The translations under genes were made by a program, and so were the position numbers. Of a stretch of DNA of 41,313 bases, positions 15,918 through 28,357 are shown one piece after another (position 1 is the first letter of the stretch; each line of letters starts with the position of its first letter). This DNA is from an uncultured Eubacteriales bacterium (GTDB lineage Bacteria; Bacillota; Clostridia; Christensenellales; Aristaeellaceae): contig OMZY01000027.1 of the NCBI GenBank assembly GCA_900315675.1, positions 1 to 41,313 of the forward strand. Direction: 5' to 3'. The notes under the pieces are model-generated. The model made no database searches. It was not told where the DNA came from and saw only the letters and a list, made by a program, of their open reading frames with translations.

Positions 15918-18476
15918 ATGGAACAATACATTGTGACCGGCATGAGCTGCGCGGCGTGCCAGGCCAGGGTGGAAAAGGCTGTGGCAAAGGTGCCCGGCGT
16001 GGATTCCGTTTCCGTGAGCCTGCTGACCAATTCCATGGGCGTGGAAGGAAATGCTTCCAGCGCGGAGATCATCCGGGCGGTGGAAGCGGCAGGCTACGGG
16101 GCCAGTGTGAAAGGGGCCCCTGCCGGGCAGCAGGCATCTGACAGCCTGGCGGCACAGGAGGAAACCCTGCAAGACCGGGAAACCCCGAAACTGAAACGCA
16201 GGCTGCTGCTGTCGGTGGGCTTCCTGGCGGTGCTGATGTACATCACAATGGGCCATCACATGGCGGGGTGGCCGCTGCCGGCTTTCCTGACGCACAATCA
16301 CCTGGCGCTGACGCTGACCCAGATGCTGCTGGCGCTGATCGTGATGATCATCAACGGGAAGTTCTTTACCAGCGGATTCCGGTCCCTGGCGCACGGCGCG
16401 CCGAACATGGATACGCTGGTGGCGCTGGGATCATCGGTCTCCTTCGGATGGAGCCTGTTTGTGTTCTACCGTATGTGCGGGATGATCACCGGCGGCGCGG
16501 GAAACATGGAGTTGATGGACCTGTATCACGGACAGCTGTACTTTGAATCCGCGGCGATGATTCCGGCCCTGATTACCGTAGGGAAGATGCTGGAAGCCCG
16601 GTCCAAGGGAAAGACGACGAACGCCCTGAAGAGCCTGATGAAGCTGGCGCCGCAGACAGCGGTGCTGCTCCGGGACGGCACAGAAACCGAAGTGCCGGTT
16701 GCGGAGGTCCGGACAGGGGATCTGTTTGCGGTGCGTCCGGGAGAAAGCATCCCTGTGGATGGCATCGTGGTTTCCGGAACGGGCGCTGTGAATGAATCCG
16801 CCCTGACAGGCGAGAGCATCCCGGTGGATAAAACGGAGGGAGACAAGGTCAGCGCAGCCACGATCAACCAGTCCGGTTTCCTGACCTGCCGTGCGACCCG
16901 GGTGGGAGAAGATACCACCCTGAGCCAGATCATCCGTATGGTTTCGGACGCGGCGGCCACCAAAGCGCCGATTGCCCGGATTGCAGACAGGGTATCCGGT
17001 ATCTTTGTACCGGCTGTGATCGGGATTGCCCTGATTGTAACAACGGGCTGGCTGATTGCCGGCGCATCCGCCGGGGACGCGGTTGCCAGAGGCATTTCCG
17101 TGCTGGTAATCTCCTGCCCCTGCGCGCTGGGCCTGGCTACACCGGTGGCCATCATGGTCGGCAACGGCCTGGGCGCAAAGAACGGTATCCTGTTCAAGAC
17201 CGGAGAAGCGCTGGAAACGGCAGGGAAAGTGCAGATAGTGGCACTGGACAAAACAGGTACAATTACCTCCGGAGAACCGGGCATGACGGATCTGATTCCC
17301 GCGGAAGGAAAAACAGAAACGGAACTGCTTCTGAAAGCGGCAGCCCTGGAGCAGGGCAGCGAACATCCACTGGCCAAGGCTATTCTGCGGGCGGCGGAAG
17401 AACGGCGGATGAAACCGGATGCCATTTCAGATTTCCGGGCTCTGCCCGGAAACGGACTGGAAGGCACTGTCGGAGGGAAGCAGCTTCACGGCGGCAGCGG
17501 CAGCTATATCAGCAGCCTGGTGAATGTGCCTGAGGAACTGATACGGCAGGCTGAAGCACTGGCGGAACAGGGCAAGACTCCGATGTTCTTTGCGGAAGAC
17601 GGAAAGACGCTGGGCGTGATTGCCGTGGCGGATCGAATCCGGGAAGATTCCCGGGAAGGCATCCGACAGCTGAAGAACCAGGGACTGCGGGTTGTGATGC
17701 TGACGGGTGACAATGAAAGAACGGCACAAGCCATTGCTGCACAGGCCGGGGTGGATGAATGGGTGGCCGGAGTCCTGCCGGAAGGCAAGGAAGAGGTGAT
17801 CCGGAAACTGCAGGAATACGGCCGTGTGGCCATGGTTGGCGACGGAATCAACGACGCGCCGGCACTGACGCGGGCGGACACCGGTATTGCCATCGGCGCG
17901 GGAACCGACGTGGCGATTGACAGCGCGGATATTGTGCTGATGAATTCCGCCCTGACAGATGTGGCGGCAGCGATCCGGCTGAGCCGGGCAACCTTGCGGA
18001 ACATCCATGAAAACCTGTTCTGGGCATTTTTCTATAACCTGATCTGCATTCCGCTGGCGGCAGGGCTCTTTGGATGGAAGATGAGCCCGATGATCGGCGC
18101 GGCAGCCATGAGCCTTTCCAGCTTTACGGTCTGCATGAATGCCCTGCGGCTGAACTTGTTCAGGCTGAAGGATCCGGCAAAGGATAAACCGCTGAAAGCG
18201 GCGAATATACCCCTTACCATAACAAAATCAATCAAAGAGGAACAGAAGAAAGAGAGGAGCGGAACCATGACAAAGACGGTAAAAATCAAAGGTATGATGT
18301 GCGGACACTGCGAGGCCTCTGTGAAGAAGGCGCTGGAGGCGCTTCCCTTTATCACGGAAGCAGCGGTCAGCCATGAGGCGGGCACCGCAGTCATCACCCT
18401 GTCCGGAGACCTGGATGAAGCGGCGGTGAAGGCGGCTGTGGAAGCCAAGGACTTTGCTTTTGAAGGAATCGAGTAA
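15918..18476 (+). CDS. copA: Copper-translocating P1B-type ATPase with C-terminal CopZ-like domain
   Basis: An 852-residue copper exporter. It has an N-terminal heavy-metal-associated domain ([15 protein letters not shown], residues 8-22), then TM helices, the phosphatase-loop TGES, the membrane copper site [11 protein letters not shown], the phosphorylation motif [11 protein letters not shown], the nucleotide-binding HP in GSEHPLAKA and hinge [14 protein letters not shown]. After the last helices a polar linker (residues of about 755-783) leads to a second HMA domain, [18 protein letters not shown]. An in-frame ATG at 18267 with its own AGGAG could give this last domain as a free 69-residue CopZ. 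GATAAGGAG supports the start. Confidence 0.96.
18255..18476 (+). CDS. Nested CopZ-like copper chaperone (possible internal start)
   Basis: Within copA and in the same frame, AGGAG (18255-18259) is followed after 7 bases by ATG at 18267. The 69-residue product [18 protein letters not shown]... is a full-length CopZ with the CxxC copper site. Spacing and length both match a real gene, so both a fused and a free chaperone may be made. Whether the internal start is used cannot be told from the sequence. The interval given starts at the ribosome site. Confidence 0.55.
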
Positions 18477-18768: not shown

Positions 18769-21700
18769 ATGATCAGAAGCTTCAGACGACGGATATTCCT
18801 TTTGCTCGCCATCCTTGCGCTGATTATCGGCATAAACAGCGTGCTGCCGTTATCTGCCGGCTACGCGGAAAGCAGCCAGATCCGAAGCGCGAAGATCGAG
18901 TGGATAACGCCGGACAGCCTGTCGGACGGGCAGACGAACCGGCTGTTTATCCGGAAGCACAGCGACGATTCGGAAACCAGCATGCAGTTCCAGATCAACG
19001 TCGTCCTGACAGGACAGGAACCGCATGAGCCGGGTTCTGTCCGGATCCTGTTCCCGCGGCAGATCTGGCATGAGCGGAGCACATACTATGCCGACGGTGC
19101 GGTTATGTCGGCGGGATACGGCGGAATGACCTTCTCCGTTCCGGACGCACCGAGCGAGAATTCCCTGTGGCACTGGGAGGAAGCGGAGAACGGGCAGTAC
19201 GCCATCGTCAACGACGCGGCTATCGATGCCGCGGCGGATATTAATTTCGAGTGTACGATCACCGGGATCTTGGTTTCGAAGATCGTGGATATGCGGCCCA
19301 GCGATCCCCTGAAGGCTACGGTGGAGGTCACGACCCGCAGCGGCGTGAAGGACACCATGAGCACCCAGGAACTGACGGCGGTCATCGACACGAGGGAATG
19401 CCTGAGTGATCCCGGCGCGGGCATGTCCGCCCAGGTGTACTCGACGCCAGAAAGCGTTCCGGCGGGCGCGAAGGAGAACCTGCCCGGCGGCCCGGAAACG
19501 GCGAATAAGTATGTGTTTGTGCGCTGGAAAACCTGGCCGCTGTATGAAGGCACGCAGTACTTCAGCCTGGACATGGACGTGTGGGCCGGGGTGGCGGAAG
19601 GAAACGGGGTCTCGATCCCGGGCATCATCCTGGGTGAGGTCAACGTCAGCGGCGGGACGGTCGGCACGGAGACCTCCGGCGAGCAGGCCGGGGAGCACTA
19701 CAGCCGGCAGACGGTCCGGTACAACTATGACGGCCGGGGATGGAACGACTACCGGGCCCGGGAAATCTGGGCGGCGTATCCCACGGACCAGATGCAGAAC
19801 AACAAAACCTATACGATCCGCGCGGCGTCGCAGTGGACGCTGACGGAAGCCGACCCGGAGCAGGCCGGCGACCCGAGGGAAGTCTCCCGGGCCGGGGCGA
19901 CAGCGTCGGCGAACTATCTGCACGCGGGATGGGAGTATCCTGCGGGAACGTTTGGCGTGTATAAGTATTCGGGCTCGCAGCCCAGCCATACGCACAACAC
20001 CCCGGTGAAGGACCGGCCGGACGGGAGCACCAGCTCCCAGAGCCACAAAAAGGACAAGACCTACGAGATGGCCGTCGGCGCGCTGCGCAACGGAAAGAGC
20101 GTGACGCTGGACTTCGAGGTGCTTACCGTGGGGTACGGCTATTCGTACACCGCGGGCCCGACGAGCGAGGTGCCGGACCTGCCGGAAGGCTGGGAAGAGG
20201 ACTCCTCCCATTACCTGAACTGGACCTACCGGATGGAGACCACGGACGATACGATTTCCGTGGCGAACATCAGCAACGGCGGGAACCTCGGGGCAGGGGA
20301 CTACTACTTCGACAGCATCACCATCGCGGCGCCGGAGATGTTCTCCTACGGGCGCCAGACGTCGGATACGTACCAGATCCCTGGCTCTGAATTCGGCTAC
20401 AGGCCCGACAACCGCCTGCCGAAACCGGACGTGGAGGTCTGGATCGAGAAGAACAAGAGCGGGAGCTGGGAGCTGTACCAGACGGTGGCAGCACGCAGCG
20501 GGACGAAGAAGATCACCTTCCCGGCGGACGCGAACGTAACCGGCTACCGGACAGTGGTCGCGACCAACCAGGCCGCCTGCAAGCTGGCGGTGTGGCCGAA
20601 GGTGACGATCCTACCGTCCGCGCATGTGATGGAGCTGGCGGAAGAGCGCCTTCAGGGCTACACGAACGTCGTCCTGAAGAACGAAGCACGGCAGGTGACG
20701 ACCTTCTACCAGAGCGCGGAGCGGCAGGACGAGGTACTGCCGGAGCAGACCGCGTGGCTGGAGGCCAACGACGACTACACAACCGAGAGCAGCGACAGCA
20801 GCCTGTCCACGCTGACGGAGGCCGGCTACAAGGTCTACGGATCCATGCCCTCGACCGGGGATTACACGTACACCAGAACCTCGAATGATCCGGCGAACCG
20901 CCGCGTCGTGGTGACGCTCTTTGCGGCGGTGTACGAACAGGCCAACGTGACGGACGGGACAAAATACAACGAAGCGGTGGCGATGGGCGCCATCACTCCG
21001 GAAACCTCCGGGACCTGGTACCTGCTGCTTCCGGAACACTTCGTGCCGAACACGTCGACGATCCAGATGCGGAGCGGCGACCGGGTCACCGACGTGAAGG
21101 TGACGGAAAACTTCCGAAACAGCGGGCGGACCCTGGTGACGGTGAAGGCGACGCTGACGCCGGATCCCCAAAAATTGTCCAGCTATAATTCGCAGGCCAA
21201 CAACTGCTGGGGGGACAAAATCCAGATCTCCATGGATATGTATGTGCCGTGGTCGGACTACAACAAAGTCCGGAACGGGTACGCGGTCTACCACGCGGCG
21301 TTTGAATCGGGCAACCCGGGCCGGCTGGGGAACCTGACGGATCAGAATTATTACCAGACCGTCGGATATCCGGACGTATGGCCGGGTACCCCCAACACCT
21401 ACCTCTACAGCATTTCCGACTCGCAGATCCGCGGGTGGATGAGTGACCTGGACCCGGACAGCGATGAGGAACGGTTCGTGTACCTGCGCGTCTCGGAGAG
21501 CATACGGGACGCTGACCTCTCGGAGCAGGTGGAATTCCGGAAGGACGCCCGGGCGGACCAGGGCGACTCCTGGGGCAGGGGCACCCGGGATGAGAACCAG
21601 GTCACCGTAACCGAGGGCGGCAAATACACCTACCGGCTGACCGTTGCCTCGAAGCAGGACGCAAAGACCACGGGCATCCTGATCTATGATGCCCTTGAGG

Positions 21701-23541
21701 AGTATGTGCCGCACGAAGGGTACGACCAGGACGACGTGAACGGGAAAAAGGCCTGGAGCGGCGCCTGGCAGGGCGAGGGCCAGTGGAAGGGAACGCTGGA
21801 GTCCGTGGACCTGTCCGAACTGTACGGGGACAGGTGTATGGGAAGACTGTACTACAGCACAACGTCCGGACTGGTGTTTGACAACAACATCGACACAAAC
21901 GTGCGGGGATGGGTCAACTTCGACAGCGGCGCCTGGGGCAGCGCCTACAGGCTGACTGACACGGATATCTGGACCGAAGTGACCGGCAGCCTGGAAAACG
22001 GTGTCTGGACTGTGCCGGACGCACTGAAGGGAAAAGTGACCGCCATTGCGGTGAACGCCGAGCGCTATAACCAGGCGGACATCGCAGCATCCTATGTCCT
22101 GGACCCGGGGGAAAAGCTCTCCGTCTACCTGAATATGGCTGCGCCGACGGACAACGGCAATGACGGCACATGGAACGCGAAGGGTGCCTACGACCACAAG
22201 AAGGACAACGCCGCGTCCACGGACGATATCGACTGGACCGGCGCGGCGGACCCCGCCAACAACATGTATGCCTACAACGCGGCGACAACCGTGTATATCC
22301 CCTTCGTCAAGTCCGGGAACAGCGAACAGGCCCAGCCCAGGGCACGGCTGGAGAGTGCGTATTCCCGGGTGGGCATCGTGCCCAGCGTGGTTTCGGTGCG
22401 GAAGACCTGGAACGACGGGGAAAGTGTCAACGGCCAATATATGGAGAACCGCGATGGGCTGCGCCCAGACAGTGTGACGGTGCACCTGAAGGGGCGGACC
22501 TCCGACCCGGATTCCCCGAAGATCGACCGGGATCTCACCCTGACCGCGGAGGGCGGCTGGAAGGGCGTGTTCCTGAACGCACCGGACACAGACAGCAACG
22601 GGAACGCGTACACCTATACGGTGACGGAGGACCCGGTGCCCGGGTACACCACGGGGGTGTACAGGGAGGCCGGACGTTCCTGGGAGATCGTCAACACGCA
22701 CAAAAAGGAAACCTTCACCCTCACGGGTGAAAAGCTGTGGCTGAACCCGGACGGAACGCCGGCGGAACCGACGGTCAGCAACATCTGGATCGCGTACCGG
22801 CGGATTACCAGCACTGGGCCGGAGAACGGTACGCGCCAGATCCAGGTCACACCGGACAGCATGGGCCGGTGGATCTACACATTCAAAGACCTGGACCGCT
22901 ATGAGCCGGGCGGATTTGAATACCAGTATGTCCTGGAGGAGCACAGCGTGCCGGACGGCTGGTTCGCGCAGACGCAAGCGGCCCCGGCGGGGGTCACGGT
23001 GACGGCGGAGTACGACCCGGAGGACCTCACGACCTTCCGGAACTTCAGAAAGCCGGACTTTGGCTATGCCATGATCTACTGCAAAGTGGATAACCGGTCC
23101 AAGGCGAAGGACGGGAACACGGCGGTGCCGTCGTTCACCTTCACGGTGGAAATGAAAAAGGACGGCGCGACCGTGGGCGGGGAATACGAATACGTCCTGT
23201 ACGACAAGGCGCCGCAGAGCTCGTGGAGCACCGCCCTGCCGGAAGGCACTGCACAGATTGGCAGCGGAACGATCCGCAGCGGCGATACCGTGACGGTGCA
23301 GCCGGAGCAGACCGTGGAGATCATCGGCATTCCCAGCGGCACAGAATGCACGGTCAAGGAAGGCATGGGCGCGGGCTGGACGTCGGACCGGGACTACGCG
23401 GACGACACCTCAAGGATGACAATCGAACAGGGCCGGACGTCGAGCGTTGGCTTCTGGAACTATTATGCCGCCAGGACGACCCTCACGATCACCGGGACGA
23501 AGCGCCTGCGGGGACGGGAGCAGAATTCGCCTTCAACCTGA
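18769..23541 (+). CDS. Giant wall-anchored Cna_B/FctA surface protein, N-terminal part (frameshifted)
   Basis: The first 1590 codons of a surface protein. A signal peptide covers residues 1-33 (cleavage likely after GYA). Residues of about 35-1200 are beta-rich adhesin-like sequence with isopeptide-type fimbrial stretches (GKYTYRLTVASKQDAKTTG...). A Cna_B domain follows at about 1206-1310, with candidate isopeptide residues Lys1212, Glu1287 and Asn1309. A second Cna_B-like domain (LTGEKLWLNPDG) and a DUF7601-like domain come next. An FctA-type domain begins (TLTITGTKRL), then the frame runs into TGA. The sequence resumes in another frame, so 18769-26003 was probably one protein of about 2410 residues. 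GACGGAG lies upstream of the ATG. Confidence 0.88.
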   Translation: MIRSFRRRIFLLLAILALIIGINSVLPLSAGYAESSQIRSAKIEWITPDSLSDGQTNRLFIRKHSDDSETSMQFQINVVLTGQEPHEPGSVRILFPRQIWHERSTYYADGAVMSAGYGGMTFSVPDAPSENSLWHWEEAENGQYAIVNDAAIDAAADINFECTITGILVSKIVDMRPSDPLKATVEVTTRSGVKDTMSTQELTAVIDTRECLSDPGAGMSAQVYSTPESVPAGAKENLPGGPETANKYVFVRWKTWPLYEGTQYFSLDMDVWAGVAEGNGVSIPGIILGEVNVSGGTVGTETSGEQAGEHYSRQTVRYNYDGRGWNDYRAREIWAAYPTDQMQNNKTYTIRAASQWTLTEADPEQAGDPREVSRAGATASANYLHAGWEYPAGTFGVYKYSGSQPSHTHNTPVKDRPDGSTSSQSHKKDKTYEMAVGALRNGKSVTLDFEVLTVGYGYSYTAGPTSEVPDLPEGWEEDSSHYLNWTYRMETTDDTISVANISNGGNLGAGDYYFDSITIAAPEMFSYGRQTSDTYQIPGSEFGYRPDNRLPKPDVEVWIEKNKSGSWELYQTVAARSGTKKITFPADANVTGYRTVVATNQAACKLAVWPKVTILPSAHVMELAEERLQGYTNVVLKNEARQVTTFYQSAERQDEVLPEQTAWLEANDDYTTESSDSSLSTLTEAGYKVYGSMPSTGDYTYTRTSNDPANRRVVVTLFAAVYEQANVTDGTKYNEAVAMGAITPETSGTWYLLLPEHFVPNTSTIQMRSGDRVTDVKVTENFRNSGRTLVTVKATLTPDPQKLSSYNSQANNCWGDKIQISMDMYVPWSDYNKVRNGYAVYHAAFESGNPGRLGNLTDQNYYQTVGYPDVWPGTPNTYLYSISDSQIRGWMSDLDPDSDEERFVYLRVSESIRDADLSEQVEFRKDARADQGDSWGRGTRDENQVTVTEGGKYTYRLTVASKQDAKTTGILIYDALEEYVPHEGYDQDDVNGKKAWSGAWQGEGQWKGTLESVDLSELYGDRCMGRLYYSTTSGLVFDNNIDTNVRGWVNFDSGAWGSAYRLTDTDIWTEVTGSLENGVWTVPDALKGKVTAIAVNAERYNQADIAASYVLDPGEKLSVYLNMAAPTDNGNDGTWNAKGAYDHKKDNAASTDDIDWTGAADPANNMYAYNAATTVYIPFVKSGNSEQAQPRARLESAYSRVGIVPSVVSVRKTWNDGESVNGQYMENRDGLRPDSVTVHLKGRTSDPDSPKIDRDLTLTAEGGWKGVFLNAPDTDSNGNAYTYTVTEDPVPGYTTGVYREAGRSWEIVNTHKKETFTLTGEKLWLNPDGTPAEPTVSNIWIAYRRITSTGPENGTRQIQVTPDSMGRWIYTFKDLDRYEPGGFEYQYVLEEHSVPDGWFAQTQAAPAGVTVTAEYDPEDLTTFRNFRKPDFGYAMIYCKVDNRSKAKDGNTAVPSFTFTVEMKKDGATVGGEYEYVLYDKAPQSSWSTALPEGTAQIGSGTIRSGDTVTVQPEQTVEIIGIPSGTECTVKEGMGAGWTSDRDYADDTSRMTIEQGRTSSVGFWNYYAARTTLTITGTKRLRGREQNSPST
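23510..23513 (+). other. Probable one-base deletion (frameshift) in a G run
   Basis: Four G residues occur where five would keep one frame. With five, the joined sequence reads TGTKRLRGTGAEFAFNLSDY, a normal FctA-domain start. This may be a sequencing or assembly error, a real mutation or slippage-based on/off switching. Confidence 0.75.
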
Positions 23542-26003
23542 GCGACTACAACAAATTTGACGATACCGGCTATGAAAACAGCGGCTACGGGCAGGTCATC
23601 GCCACGGTGAAGACCGGCGTGAGCCGGGGCACGGTGACTGAGGATGACGGCACGAAGACAGGGCTCGCAATGTTCACGTTCCGGGCGACGTATGATGGCA
23701 ACAGCACGTATACGATGCGCGAATACGGCGGGACGAAGGTCCTGCACTACAAGGCGGAAGAGGCCCTGCCTACCGGCACGCAGGTCAATGCGGACGGGAG
23801 CGTAACCTGGAAAAACGTCACCTACGACACGGAACGGAAGGACGTGACGGTGACGATCACGGACAACATGGACGGCACCGTGAAGATCACGTCGACCCCG
23901 CTGGTGTTCACGAACACTTATCACATGCAGATGGGTATTGCCCTGACAGCGCAAAAGGAGCTGGTAGGACGGACGCTGCAGCCGGAGGAATTCTCTTTTG
24001 AGGTCCGGCGGAACGGCGCCGCGGCCGGCTCGGCCCCCATCGCCCGCGGAAAGAACGACGCGGACGGAAACATCACCTTCACGCCGGAAATTTCCCTGAC
24101 GGAACGGGACCTGGCTGCTATTTCCCCGACGACAGGCATCGGGGAAGTGAAGTTCCTCATCAGTGAGGTGCAGGGAACGGACCCGACGGTGGCCTATTTG
24201 ACTACGCCGGCCGAAGCGGTTGTGCAGATCGGCCAGAAGACGAACGGCGAAATCCTCACGGCGCTGCCCGGCCAGACGCTGAAGCACCAGGAAGCGGACT
24301 GTTCCGCATGCGGCGGAACAGGCGAGGACGGCGGACTGACCGCAACCATGCTCGACAAAAGCCTTGAGATCACTGGAACGCTTCCGATGAACTCTTATTT
24401 CAACAATCAGTACATGGACCTCTGCACGAAATGCGGCGGCACCGGGTATGATCCGGAAAGCCCGGGCACTCCGTGCAGTACCTGCGGAGGCTTAGCTGTG
24501 TCCTTCCGGGAGGATAACGGACTCAATGCGCTCCATCTGGGAAACGGTCAGGTGATCTGGCAGATTACAAACCAGTTCTCGCTGGAGGAGAACCTTGCCA
24601 ATACGAGTCTGGACGCCTCCATGTTCCCGAAGACGTCATACTGGGTGATACTCGGATATGTGTTTACGGAAGCGCAATGGACGGCTGCGAACGGAAGCAT
24701 GTCACAGCTCTATTCCATGATGGAAAACGCCGCCCTGATCTACCTGAAAGGCAACGCCGGAGACACCTGTTCCGTCTGCGGAGGAACCGGCAAGATGGAC
24801 GGCGAGCTGTACGTCGACGGCGAAGCGGAGCCTGTGGCCCTGGTGAACCACCTGAAGACCGGGATCCGGTTCACGGCGGAGAAACTGATGGACGGACAGC
24901 CCGCGGCGGAACCCTTTGAATTTGTGCTGCTGGAGACGGATGAGGCCAGAAGCACAGAAAAGGAAATCGCCCGGACAAAGAACGGCACGGACGGCAAAAT
25001 CCTGTTTGAGAATGTATATGTGGATCCGGTCCCGGCCGGCGATCGTTACTATGTGATCCGGGAAGCGGCGGGAACCAATCCGGCGGTGGAATATGATACC
25101 GGCGAAGACTTGTACAAGGTGACCGTTGCCAGTTCACCGGACGGGATTCATACCGTGGAGCAGAAACGCATATCCGGCGACGGCATCTTCCGGAACACCC
25201 GGAAAGCCGGATCGCTTGCCATTGAAGTTAAAACCAGCGGATATACGAGGCCGTGGTGGGCAACGTATTGGGAACCTCCCAAATTCAAGGTGAATGTGCT
25301 CCTGAAGGACCGAGAAGGCAAACCGCTGGCAGGGCATCCGCTTCCGGAAACAAAGGGAAAAGCAAGGCTATCCGCAAAAGCGGAAAATACGGGAAATATA
25401 AAAACAGTGTCGGATGTCCGGGTCAGAGCGGAAAGTCCAGCCCAAAACCTGACGGACAGCGACGGCCACGGAACCCTCCTGATTGAAGGCGGAAGTACCG
25501 CGGTGATTACCGGCCTTCCGGACGGAGCCACCTATGAGGTTTCCCAGCCGGCGGACAGCATGCCCAGGGGCTTCAGCCAGGGCAGCGCGGAAGGCGCCAC
25601 GGGCACGATCAGGGGCGGCGAGCAAAGCAAGGCAACGCTGCAGAACAACTATGAGGGTGAAGAAGAACCTGATCCGTCTGAATCTCCCAAGACGACGGAC
25701 GCACCGACGGTCACCCCGACGGCAACACCGACAGCGACACCGACAGCTACACCGACGGCGACACCGGCAACTGCACCGACAGCTACGCCGACGGTCACTC
25801 CGACAGCCACATCGACGGTAACACCGGCAGCGACTCCGACAACAACCCCGACGAGCACGCCGACGGCTGCTCCGACGATCACACCGAAACCACAGGAAGT
25901 CCCGCGAACCGGGGACAGCGCCAGCCCGCTGCTGTGGGCCGGACTGATCCTGGCAGGACTGATCGGAATCGTCCTGCTGATGAAGCCGCGCAAAAAGGAA
26001 TAA
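23514..26003 (+). CDS. Giant surface protein, C-terminal part with Cys block and sortase signal
   Basis: This part continues the same protein in the other frame (829 residues from 23514). In order: the rest of an FctA-like domain to FTNTYHM; a second one (LTAQKELVGRTLQPEEFSFEV); a Cys-rich insert with four CxxCGG motifs; a third FctA-like domain (FTAEKLMDGQPAAEPFEFVL); a DUF7601-like domain; a Thr/Pro-rich wall-spanning repeat; the sortase-type signal VPRTG (25899-25913); a hydrophobic helix; and KPRKKE. Valine replaces Leu in the LPxTG pattern, so a particular sortase may be needed; none is in this window. The frame is also open upstream to an ATG at 23223, but that stretch is out of frame with the protein family. 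Confidence 0.85.
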   Translation, partial: TGAEFAFNLSDYNKFDDTGYENSGYGQVIATVKTGVSRGTVTEDDGTKTGLAMFTFRATYDGNSTYTMREYGGTKVLHYKAEEALPTGTQVNADGSVTWKNVTYDTERKDVTVTITDNMDGTVKITSTPLVFTNTYHMQMGIALTAQKELVGRTLQPEEFSFEVRRNGAAAGSAPIARGKNDADGNITFTPEISLTERDLAAISPTTGIGEVKFLISEVQGTDPTVAYLTTPAEAVVQIGQKTNGEILTALPGQTLKHQEADCSACGGTGEDGGLTATMLDKSLEITGTLPMNSYFNNQYMDLCTKCGGTGYDPESPGTPCSTCGGLAVSFREDNGLNALHLGNGQVIWQITNQFSLEENLANTSLDASMFPKTSYWVILGYVFTEAQWTAANGSMSQLYSMMENAALIYLKGNAGDTCSVCGGTGKMDGELYVDGEAEPVALVNHLKTGIRFTAEKLMDGQPAAEPFEFVLLETDEARSTEKEIARTKNGTDGKILFENVYVDPVPAGDRYYVIREAAGTNPAVEYDTGEDLYKVTVASSPDGIHTVEQKRISGDGIFRNTRKAGSLAIEVKTSGYTRPWWATYWEPPKFKVNVLLKDREGKPLAGHPLPETKGKARLSAKAENTGNIKTVSDVRVRAESPAQNLTDSDGHGTLLIEGGSTAVITGLPDGATYEVSQPADSMPRGFSQGSAEGATGTIRGGEQSKATLQNNYEGEEEPDPSESPKTTDAPTVTPTATPTATPTATPTATPATAPTATPTVTPTATSTVTPAATPTTTPTSTPTAAPTITPKPQEVPRTGDSASPLLWAGLILAGLIGIVLLMKPRKKE
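24300..24791 (+). other. DnaJ-like four-motif cysteine block in the surface protein
   Basis: Four cysteine motifs occur: CSACGGTG (24300-24323), CTKCGGTG (24423-24446), CSTCGG (24474-24491) and CSVCGGTG (24768-24791). They match the CxxCxGxG repeats of the DnaJ/Hsp40 zinc-finger domain in number and form. Gaps between first cysteines are 41, 17 and 98 residues, longer than in DnaJ. No J-domain is present. Confidence 0.8.
25692..25890 (+). repeat. Thr-Pro tandem repeat region
   Basis: Imperfect ACACCGACGGC/ACACCGACAGC units encode runs of TPTA, TPTV and TPTS. Such Thr/Pro-rich regions span the peptidoglycan in sortase-anchored proteins and may be glycosylated. Unit number is likely to vary among strains. 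Confidence 0.85.
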
Positions 26004-26962: not shown

Positions 26963-27319
26963 ATGTTCAATATCGGTTTTTCTGAACTGATCGTTGTCCT
27001 GCTGATTGCCTTCCTGGTTGTCGGACCGAAGGACCTTCCGAAGGTGGCTCGCTGGCTGGGCCGCATGGTGAAAAAACTGAAACAGCTGATCCGTGAGGTG
27101 AAACAGGAAACCGGATGGGATGACCTGGAGAAGGAACTGAAGGATACCAAGGCATCGGTTACGGACCTGAAGAAGGAACTGGATATTACCGCTGAACTGA
27201 AGGACGCTTCCAAAGACCTGAACAGGAGCCTGAACAGCGTAAAGGACGAACTTCAGCAGACGGGAAAGGAAATCCGGGAAGAAACTGCGGAGATTCAGCA
27301 CGAGACGATGAAAAAATAA
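26963..27319 (+). CDS. tatB: Sec-independent protein translocase TatB-like
   Basis: A 118-residue TatA/B family protein. The start MFNIGFSELIVVLLIAF is the TatB signature (FxIGFSEL with conserved Glu8), followed by VGPKDLPKVARWLGR, with the Pro hinge and amphipathic helix. A charged coiled-coil tail makes up residues 50-118. TatB pairs with TatC to bind twin-arginine signals. Most Gram-positives make do with a dual TatA, so a separate TatB-like subunit is notable. GCGGAGGGAG precedes the ATG. Confidence 0.88.
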   Translation: MFNIGFSELIVVLLIAFLVVGPKDLPKVARWLGRMVKKLKQLIREVKQETGWDDLEKELKDTKASVTDLKKELDITAELKDASKDLNRSLNSVKDELQQTGKEIREETAEIQHETMKK

Positions 27320-27352
27320 GCCTGCAGCGACAGGCATAAGGAGGATATATCT

Positions 27353-27544
27353 ATGCGTCTGGGAACTACGGAAATCATTCTTATTGTGGTACTTGCCCTG
27401 GTACTGTTCGGCGGCGGAAAACTGGCCGGCGTCGGCAAAGCCCTGGGAAAGAGCATCAAGGACTTCAAGCATGAAGTGAAAGAAGACGACGACAACAAGT
27501 CCGAAGAGGACGAGGAAGCCAAAACCACCAAAGCAAAGAAGTAA
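27353..27544 (+). CDS. tatA: Sec-independent protein translocase TatA
   Basis: A 63-residue TatA. A short TM helix (TTEIILIVVLALVLF) leads to GGGKLAGVGKALGKSIKDFK, the FG-x-K hinge and amphipathic helix typical of TatA, and to an acidic/basic tail. TatA oligomers form the transport path. It starts 33 bases after tatB with AAGGAGG before the ATG. Confidence 0.9.
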   Translation: MRLGTTEIILIVVLALVLFGGGKLAGVGKALGKSIKDFKHEVKEDDDNKSEEDEEAKTTKAKK

Positions 27545-27562
27545 TAAGGCTGCCGCAATGAT

Positions 27563-28357
27563 ATGAGCATAAAGAATCGAAAAGCACTCCGGACTGAAGA
27601 GGAACAGGCCGCGCCGGAAGAAACGGAGCAGCAGGCTGTGACGGACGGAGGAGCACCGCTGCTGGCCCATCTGCAGGCTTTGCGGCGCGTGTTAATTGTG
27701 TCCGCGGCAGCGCTGGCGATCGCGTTCTTCCTGGTGTTCTATCTGGCGATTGAAAACCTGATGGCCTGGATTATCGGCCCCATCGCGGAACGCGGGATCC
27801 AGATTATCTACACCGCCATGTCGGAGGCACTGGTAACCAAATTCAAGGTTGCGCTAGTTGCCGCCATTATCCTGGCGTCACCGGTGATTATCTGGCAGAT
27901 CTGGAGCTTTATCAAACCGGCGCTTTTCCCGAAAGAGAAAAAAGCGTTCCGCGTTCTGTTCCTGGTTGCCCTGTTCCTGTTCCTGCTGGGCGTTGTGTTC
28001 TGCTATCTGGCGGTATACATGCTGGCAGTGGACTTTTTCCTGGTGGCAGGGGATAACCTGGCCACGCCGATGCTGTCCATCGACAAGTATGTCAGCTTCC
28101 TCTTCGGATTCATTATTCCCTTCGGTGTGGCGTTCCAGCTGCCGGTGGCCCTGTACCTGACCACACGGGTCGGCTGGACAAACTACCGGATGCTGGCAGC
28201 CAAACGAAAGTTTGTGATCCTGGGCATCTTTGTGTTTGCTGCCATCCTGACACCTCCGGATGTGGTGTCCCAGCTGGCACTGGGTTTGCCGATGATTCTG
28301 CTGTATGAGATCGGTATCCAGGCCTGCCGCCTGACAAAACCCAGGGAGAGAGAATAA
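27563..28357 (+). CDS. tatC: Sec-independent protein translocase TatC
   Basis: A 264-residue TatC, the polytopic receptor for twin-arginine signals, with six expected TM helices. Recognisable features are LLAHLQALRRVLI near the N-terminus (the usual HLxELRxR), SEALVTKFKVAL in the first periplasmic loop (normally P-E-F-x-x-x-K) and a C-terminal TPPDVVSQLALGLPMILLYEIGI. The first 30 residues are an unusual polar Glu/Gln-rich extension. The ribosome site is weak (AAGG, 15 bases before the ATG), so it may depend on coupling with tatA, which ends 18 bases upstream. Confidence 0.93.
   Translation: MSIKNRKALRTEEEQAAPEETEQQAVTDGGAPLLAHLQALRRVLIVSAAALAIAFFLVFYLAIENLMAWIIGPIAERGIQIIYTAMSEALVTKFKVALVAAIILASPVIIWQIWSFIKPALFPKEKKAFRVLFLVALFLFLLGVVFCYLAVYMLAVDFFLVAGDNLATPMLSIDKYVSFLFGFIIPFGVAFQLPVALYLTTRVGWTNYRMLAAKRKFVILGIFVFAAILTPPDVVSQLALGLPMILLYEIGIQACRLTKPRERE

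Follow-up and report, generated by a model that had tools for sequence, protein, structure and literature searches.

The central domain of the chaperone DnaJ (PF00684) contains four CxxC(xGxG) motifs, whose zinc sites pair motif 1 with motif 4 and motif 2 with motif 3, so that the neighbouring motifs 1-2 and 3-4 share no ion. Anti-TRAP (RtpA, PF15777), a cytosolic regulator of 53 residues, has two CxxCxGxG motifs in a hairpin, in which one ion is held by four cysteines. FctA or Spy0128-like domains (PF12892) are found in sortase-anchored pilins and adhesins, and RrgA and Spy0125 carry a defined inserted domain that is not known to have a metal base. Known systems of variable display in bacteria are based on C-type lectin folds or on whole-domain exchange. 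Here we report the computational analysis of a giant wall-anchored surface protein encoded in contig OMZY01000027.1 (assembly GCA_900315675.1) of an uncultured Eubacteriales bacterium from the family Aristaeellaceae; the whole analysed stretch of 41,313 nucleotides is referred to below as the window. The protein carries a DnaJ/anti-TRAP-like clasp inserted in an isopeptide domain, and its unusual feature is the combination of a conserved clasp, predicted to bind metal, with unrelated inserted sequences.

Zinc binding by the two CxxCxGxG motifs of anti-TRAP, and the essential role of zinc for its oligomers, are reported in the available part of a published study (PMC2896485). The accessible part of an isopeptide-bond survey (PMC12617251) describes how CnaA- and CnaB-type folds can take up further domains, mostly of the isopeptide or adhesion kind, and names RrgA and Spy0125 among such cases; no mention of zinc or DnaJ occurs in that part. 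Literature searches at the record level, with most subscription papers out of reach, returned no description of a module such as the one reported here. An earlier note, made from the window sequence, had drawn attention to four DnaJ-type motifs in this protein; its observation is confirmed and its interpretation partly supported. The main point, which it missed, is that the inserts differ completely between classes of the module while the cysteines stay.

The cysteine module and its insertion site

All four CxxC motifs are encoded on the plus strand in the reading frame 23223..26003, at the coordinates that the earlier note had assigned to them. Motifs 1 (CSACGGTG, 24300..24323) and 4 (CSVCGGTG, 24768..24791) are referred to as the outer pair, and motifs 2 (CTKCGGTG, 24423..24446) and 3 (CSTCGGLA, 24474..24497) as the inner pair; motif 3 has CxxCxG only, its last Gly being missing. 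Variable inserts occupy positions 24324..24422 between motifs 1 and 2 and 24498..24767 between motifs 3 and 4, likewise on the plus strand. The spacings from the start of one motif to the start of the next are 41, 17, and 98 residues, the second of which agrees with the distance given earlier for motifs 2 and 3. A chance origin of the motifs was ruled out by shuffling the residues of the two frames that encode the protein (15 Cys in 2,416 amino acids), since four CxxC within 170 residues appeared in none of 20,000 shuffles. All eight cysteines are invariant in the first five aligned sequences.

The motifs had been thought to lie between FctA domains. We found instead that the module sits within a single FctA (Spy0128-like) domain, after its isopeptide Glu, in the loop ahead of the isopeptide Asn. 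On the plus strand, the part of this carrier domain before the module spans 23910..24296 (Lys codon 23955, Glu codon 24165), and its end follows the module in a segment that also includes the start of the next domain (24792..24947, Asn codon 24846). Each residue of the Lys, Glu, Asn triad is invariant in 22 of 22 aligned rows, the Asn also in 20 of 20 rows of another alignment, and a triad for FctA (7W7I) is given in the accessible part of the isopeptide-bond survey (PMC12617251). The insertion site is fixed in a conserved isopeptide domain, for which formation of the bond is predicted. An AlphaFold2 model of a natural domain with two motifs (the second copy in locus L023; 180 residues, five-row alignment) had a mean predicted local distance difference test score (pLDDT) of 83.7 and put both motifs in the stretch that separates strand 118-125 from strand 143-151. 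Compared with PDB, the model had four matches under E 0.001, all of them FctB minor pilins (E values of 1.6e-4 to 9.8e-4, template modelling score about 0.5).

With FctA pilins and adhesins the window protein shares a Pfam score far above the cut-off (67.8 versus 22.1 bits), the invariant triad, and a sorting signal; it differs from them by a loop that contains the cysteine module and its large variable inserts. The likeness to the DnaJ central domain consists of four CxxC(xGxG) motifs with a probable nested pairing, whereas the long links of the module (35-82 and 47-160 residues, measured between motif starts) have sequences unrelated between classes, a J domain is absent, and the protein is presumably extracellular. 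The DnaJ_CXXCXGXG profile search proposed in the earlier note gave 21.8 bits against a cut-off of 32.7, covering positions 1-26 of 65, and Pfam found no J domain at E <= 1 in either frame; membership in the DnaJ domain family was therefore rejected. Elsewhere in the genome, the DnaJ central domain had one match, in a 375-residue frame on another contig, presumably DnaJ itself. Anti-TRAP resembles the inner pair and the two-motif forms described below by its hairpin with two CxxCxGxG motifs, but it is a small cytosolic regulator, and its Pfam model PF15777 reached only 10 bits (E = 0.91) on the window protein, below the cut-off of 32.

Comparison of the insertion site in 31 closely matching domains revealed a natural series of seven empty, five two-motif, and 18 four-or-more-motif forms, with one exception, L050. 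Empty domains have 2-11 amino acids at the site and no Cys, two-motif domains have 17-26 amino acids with four Cys in two CxxC, and the large form has 119-266 amino acids with 8-15 Cys in four to six CxxC. The exception, from genome G021 of the same genus, carries an insert of 239 amino acids with 4 Cys, forming two CxxC in the middle of the insert 10 residues apart, and its outer pair is absent. Large inserts are thus not tied to the presence of all four motifs, and a large Cys-free insert was found in none of the 31 domains. Homologs without the cysteines had been named earlier as evidence that would speak against the proposal: seven of the 31 domains do lack Cys, but they lack the whole insert too, and L050 has kept the inner pair and is without the outer one. 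Different forms may coexist in one genome or protein. Genome G184 has three copies of the module (four-motif L122 and L123, two-motif L124) and one empty domain (L125). In G573, two four-motif domains (L126, L127) stand beside an empty one (L128), and L023 combines a four-motif and a two-motif domain within one protein.

The domains other than L050 (30 in total) were profile matches below 1e-30, with L106 and L107 dropped as duplicates of L132 and L138; L050 was the single domain passing 1e-30 among 19 further loci picked without the motif. The starting set of intervals numbered 130. Of the 67 that reach 30 residues or more, 37 have four or more Cys, some being double counts that stem from the domain before; the remaining 30 begin at FctA-like matches of lower strength (E above 1e-25) and extend into a later domain. 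This set included no intervals from L112, L114, L116, and L118 and only weak ones from L113, L115, L117, L119, and L120. A partial module of G005, cut by the contig end to motif 4 only, was left out of the counts. L025, which is nearly identical to L024, was used in the spacing and insert counts and left out of the 30-domain count and the FctA control described below.

In an all-versus-all comparison of 19 four-motif modules, significant similarity was detected in 21 of 171 pairs of inserts between motifs 1 and 2 and in 28 of 171 pairs of inserts between motifs 3 and 4. Every significant pair falls within eight close relatives around the window (L024 and L025 being nearly the same), and the remaining eleven modules each stand alone, giving 12 insert classes with no detectable similarity between classes. 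As a control, the FctA segments preceding the module matched each other in 153 of 153 pairs (18 rows). The cysteines are kept while the inserts get replaced by unrelated ones. Compared with the FctA flank, the inserts are richer in Tyr (6.8 versus 4.3%) and Trp (1.4 versus 0.6%). A Pfam search with six inserts from five modules yielded nothing credible, its two hits having E values of 0.16-0.18. The view that the inserted stretches look like separate small domains is supported.

Probable pairing of the motifs and predicted metal binding

In the 19 four-motif modules, motifs 2 and 3 are spaced by 7-37 residues (mean 16, standard deviation 5.6), with 13-17 residues in 17 of them; motifs 1 and 2 are 35-82 and motifs 3 and 4 are 47-160 residues apart. 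The spacings in the five two-motif forms (8, 9, 14, 14, and 17) lie within the range of the inner pair. A hairpin profile built from 10 inner pairs, three two-motif forms, and one permease hairpin (A5) matched the structures of yeast MAS5 (4e-7) and E. coli DnaJ (6e-7), as well as those of anti-TRAP (3lcz, 3.3e-5; 2bx9, 2.8e-4), where the alignment covers both motifs. The inner pair has the two close CxxCxGxG motifs of an anti-TRAP-type hairpin, apart from the missing last Gly of motif 3 in the window. Because L050 keeps its close pair in the middle of the insert without the outer motifs, motifs 2 and 3 appear to behave as a unit. From the spacing, the two-motif forms, and L050 we infer a nested pairing, in which motifs 2 and 3 form the inner hairpin and motifs 1 and 4 pair outside it, as the earlier note had suggested. 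In the second domain of L023, the alignment places the two motifs on motifs 1 and 4, which is partly due to the shared flanks. The module is predicted to bind metal, most likely zinc, or another soft metal. Between motifs 3 and 4, the inserts of L017, L018, L023, L024, and L025 contain an additional C-x-H ... C-P-D-C group that may be a third metal site.

Side-by-side pairing would offer another explanation of the four motifs: the module would be a tandem duplicate of the two-motif form, in which 1+2 and 3+4 each hold one ion and each insert is the loop of its own hairpin. Four motifs would also arise if a two-motif unit were duplicated and its loops grew, and the closeness of motifs 2 and 3 is no proof of their pairing, since close neighbours in DnaJ share no ion. 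We nevertheless consider side-by-side pairing unlikely, as the short 2-3 spacing fits the two-motif forms (8-17) and anti-TRAP, both outer motifs are missing from L050, which retains the close pair, and DnaJ itself pairs 1+4 and 2+3.

The cysteines could also serve a purpose other than a metal-stapled base. Given eight surface cysteines on a presumed anaerobe, and since CxxC can be redox active, disulfides formed by oxidation might lock or release the loops. Such a redox clasp seems quite improbable: the Gly pattern of CxxCxGxG is that of the zinc-binding DnaJ and anti-TRAP motifs, and the extra CxH..CPDC groups of the five loci named above resemble a further metal site. A surface chaperone or oxidoreductase, acting like the DnaJ cysteine-rich domain on the folding or disulfides of neighbours or exported proteins, would agree with the motif type and with the reductase activity of DnaJ-type zinc domains reported in the available part of another study (PMC5818400). 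This role is very unlikely in view of the absent J domain, the sub-threshold DnaJ domain score, the scarcity of Cys outside the module (3-8 per 1,000 residues, counted in 15 relatives), and the 12 unrelated insert classes, which a conserved activity does not predict. We found no evidence for the folding of neighbours or the redox function that the earlier note had considered.

A third possibility is metal sensing or capture at the surface, tied to a heavy-metal P-type ATPase gene with HMA domains (15918-18476) that lies directly upstream of the surface protein gene and is kept at the same place in four of four genus relatives (L015-L018). It is highly improbable, as tblastn at 1e-8 detected no such ATPase in 17 other stretches (up to 20 kb, 15 of them module-bearing), and variable inserts are not needed for capture.

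Variable inserts as candidate display surfaces

We propose, with a probability of about 60%, that this is a metal-stapled insertion module in the FctA domain of a giant wall-anchored protein, whose loops provide variable surfaces that bind ligands or act as antigens. On either side of the insertion loop, motifs 1 and 4 would hold one metal ion, most likely zinc, to close its base, and motifs 2 and 3 would form a short anti-TRAP-like hairpin with a second ion, so that the two intervening stretches would hang off the double clasp as loops or small domains. A covalent Lys-Asn bond would lock the carrier domain. With the fold held by the clasp and the isopeptide bond, the loops would be free to mutate or be replaced; their most likely role would be in ligand binding or evasion. 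The display role fits because inserted domains in isopeptide folds are known from RrgA and Spy0125, from which the present module differs by a clasp with changing inserts. The chaperone, redox, and metal-capture roles would account for the cysteines and leave the insert diversity without an explanation.

More tentatively, and with somewhat less than an even chance, the module may represent a general evolvable scaffold for display on bacterial surfaces, in which a domain locked by its isopeptide bond and stapled by two metal sites takes up unrelated inserts, their diversity being maintained by selection and strain exchange. Candidate selective agents would include ligands, phages, host antibodies, and grazers, and the logic would be like that of antibody loops on a fixed frame. 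If true, variable display would have a further solution in a small metal clasp that tolerates unrelated inserts within a domain locked by a covalent bond, for which empty, two-motif, and four-motif natural forms are available for comparison. Engineered binders could also be built on it as a robust scaffold, and the question of which targets these rumen Clostridia bind through some of their largest surface proteins becomes testable.

Comparison of close relatives showed how the module diverges. At the window's locus, the first 1,500 residues of the protein are about 96-97% identical to those of G001, G022, and G002 (means of 50-residue bins), and the modules are 47, 47, and 43% identical, respectively. 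Between the window and L015, the rates of synonymous (dS) and nonsynonymous (dN) substitution are 0.96 and 0.47 in the module versus 0.08-0.43 and 0.05-0.08 in the flanks, and between L017 and L023 the module is 88% identical, with 91, 83, and 74% in the flanks. These comparisons suggest exchange of divergent alleles. In L015 and L016, which belong to the same insert class, dN/dS is 1.47 and 1.25 in the two inserts and 0.37, 0.08, and 0.57 in the flanks, and the excess of replacements in the inserts is significant in a Fisher test on rounded counts (P = 0.0005 versus three flanks, 0.0003 versus two).

A dN/dS near 1 in the inserts of this pair would also be expected from a neutral relic, that is, an insertion that a stalk loop tolerates and that, having no function, drifts, its cysteines being kept solely against misfolding. 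The empty sites, the broken window copy, and L050, which lost or never had the outer pair, are in line with such drift. It remains improbable, since the motif cysteines survive complete replacement of the inserts, and since motif 4 is found at at least 21 places in 16 genomes from six genera, with three copies of the module in G184.

Several observations weigh against the metal-stapled display module proposed above. The relation between insert size and Cys content is partly built in, as 22 of the 31 domains are profile rows chosen for their motifs; the seven empty domains and the second domain of L023 fall outside these rows. The eight domains found without the motif are the seven empty ones and L050, and the latter breaks the rule that links large inserts to the outer pair. 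When aligned with E. coli DnaJ, the hairpin profile falls on the neighbouring motifs 1-2 and 3-4, which share no ion, so that close spacing alone is no proof of pairing. The insert dN/dS of L015 and L016 is not significantly above 1 (P = 0.72), and the other pair of the same class, L017 and L023, has dN/dS of 0.44 in the module and 0.18-0.22 in the flanks, with no sign of positive selection; relaxed constraint or simple divergence of the inserts is possible. The DUF7601 region and the Pro/Thr stalk diverge as well; between the window and G022 and G002, residues 1500-1590 are 48-60% and the stalk 36-54% identical. Finally, the window's own gene copy is frame-broken, and the module was matched in just eight of 45 genus genomes, one of them partially, many of the genomes being incomplete.

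The module is among the most variable regions of the protein, not always the most variable one. Between L015 and L016, the region of about residues 1440-1560, which by its position corresponds to DUF7601, diverges more than the module does, with the lowest identity near residue 1480, and it may be a second variable region. A search of the window's own genome (95.66% complete) for a silent cassette or template, using the DNA of 24296-24800 as query, returned only the locus itself plus 26 weak fragments, none longer than about 35 bases (best E value 0.01), and a protein-level search for a second module in this genome returned only other parts of the same protein. As no second copy was found in the genome, a target of a diversity-generating retroelement or a silent-cassette system was rejected as a candidate; reverse transcriptases were not searched for.

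Distribution, host protein and neighbouring genes

Within the genome samples searched, the module is confined to one family; other Clostridia do have the same architecture, which the earlier note had proposed to look for. A profile of the cysteine region built from five sequences (A1) matched seven of 45 genus genomes, representing five full modules, the truncated one in G005, and one ABC-permease-like hairpin. Among 396 order genomes it matched 10, including four full matches, all within the genus; the other matches were G184 (from the family, a weak match that led to a module of the same kind), four DnaJ proteins, and L031, in which the scan found no CxxCxG frame. A profile of motif 4 and the last strand (A2) matched 19 of 308 family genomes, some matches beginning only after the motif, and two of 391 class genomes, namely the window's and G979, where the match starts from position 11 and the scan found no CxxCxG frame. 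With a broader model (A6), 103 of the 308 family genomes matched; most of the matches listed begin after the motif and are ordinary FctA ends, and those that include the motif, among the matches listed, account for the 21 or more places mentioned above. Six of 348 phylum genomes matched; in five of them, all but the window's, the match starts at position 17 or further on and does not include the motif. Metagenomes of goat omasum, yak rumen, and the rumen and omasum of water buffalo are the sources of the named relatives.

A related arrangement was observed at 11 loci of the same genus (L069, L071, L072, L074-L076, L078, L079, L082, L084, and L085), where a CxxCxGxG and a second CxxC form a hairpin after the first membrane span of an Opp/Dpp-type ABC permease-like protein, as judged by eye. 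This hairpin is probably located outside the cell. Four other loci from the same search (L077, L080, L081, and L083) look like DnaJ.

The surface protein of the window is split between two plus-strand frames. The frame 18769..23541, which stops early, encodes the first 1,590 residues, with a signal-peptide-like start (by eye) and, according to Pfam, Cna_B and DUF7601 domains. The C-terminal part continues in another frame (23523..26003) with FctA domains, the cysteine module, DUF7601, a Pro/Thr-rich stretch, and a sorting signal; Pfam detected FctA, DUF7601, and the sub-threshold DnaJ_CXXCXGXG match in this part. Since four relatives (G001, G022, G002, and G035; loci L015-L018) carry both parts joined in a single frame of 2,396-2,480 residues, the window copy has either a break or an assembly error near 23,520, and intact copies exist in relatives. 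The plus-strand segment 25899..26003 encodes the sorting signal VPRTG, a membrane span, a basic tail, and the stop; the signal scored 19 bits with TIGR01167 (LPXTG_anchor), above the cut-off of 15.9, and 16.9 bits with Pfam Gram_pos_anchor, below the cut-off of 20. Wall anchoring of this isopeptide protein, as described in the earlier note, is supported by the VPRTG signal and by four sortase matches in the window's genome. A PDB search with the C-terminal part gave 11 matches with E values up to 1, which we regarded as low-complexity matches to the Pro/Thr-rich stretch and discarded.

Downstream of the surface protein gene, TatA and TatC are encoded at 26963-28357, and Tat genes are also present in L016, L017, and L022. 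In the giant proteins of L122 and L128, the carrier domain is followed by repeats of the DTSxVTxMxxMF type, which we take to resemble BspA-like repeats.

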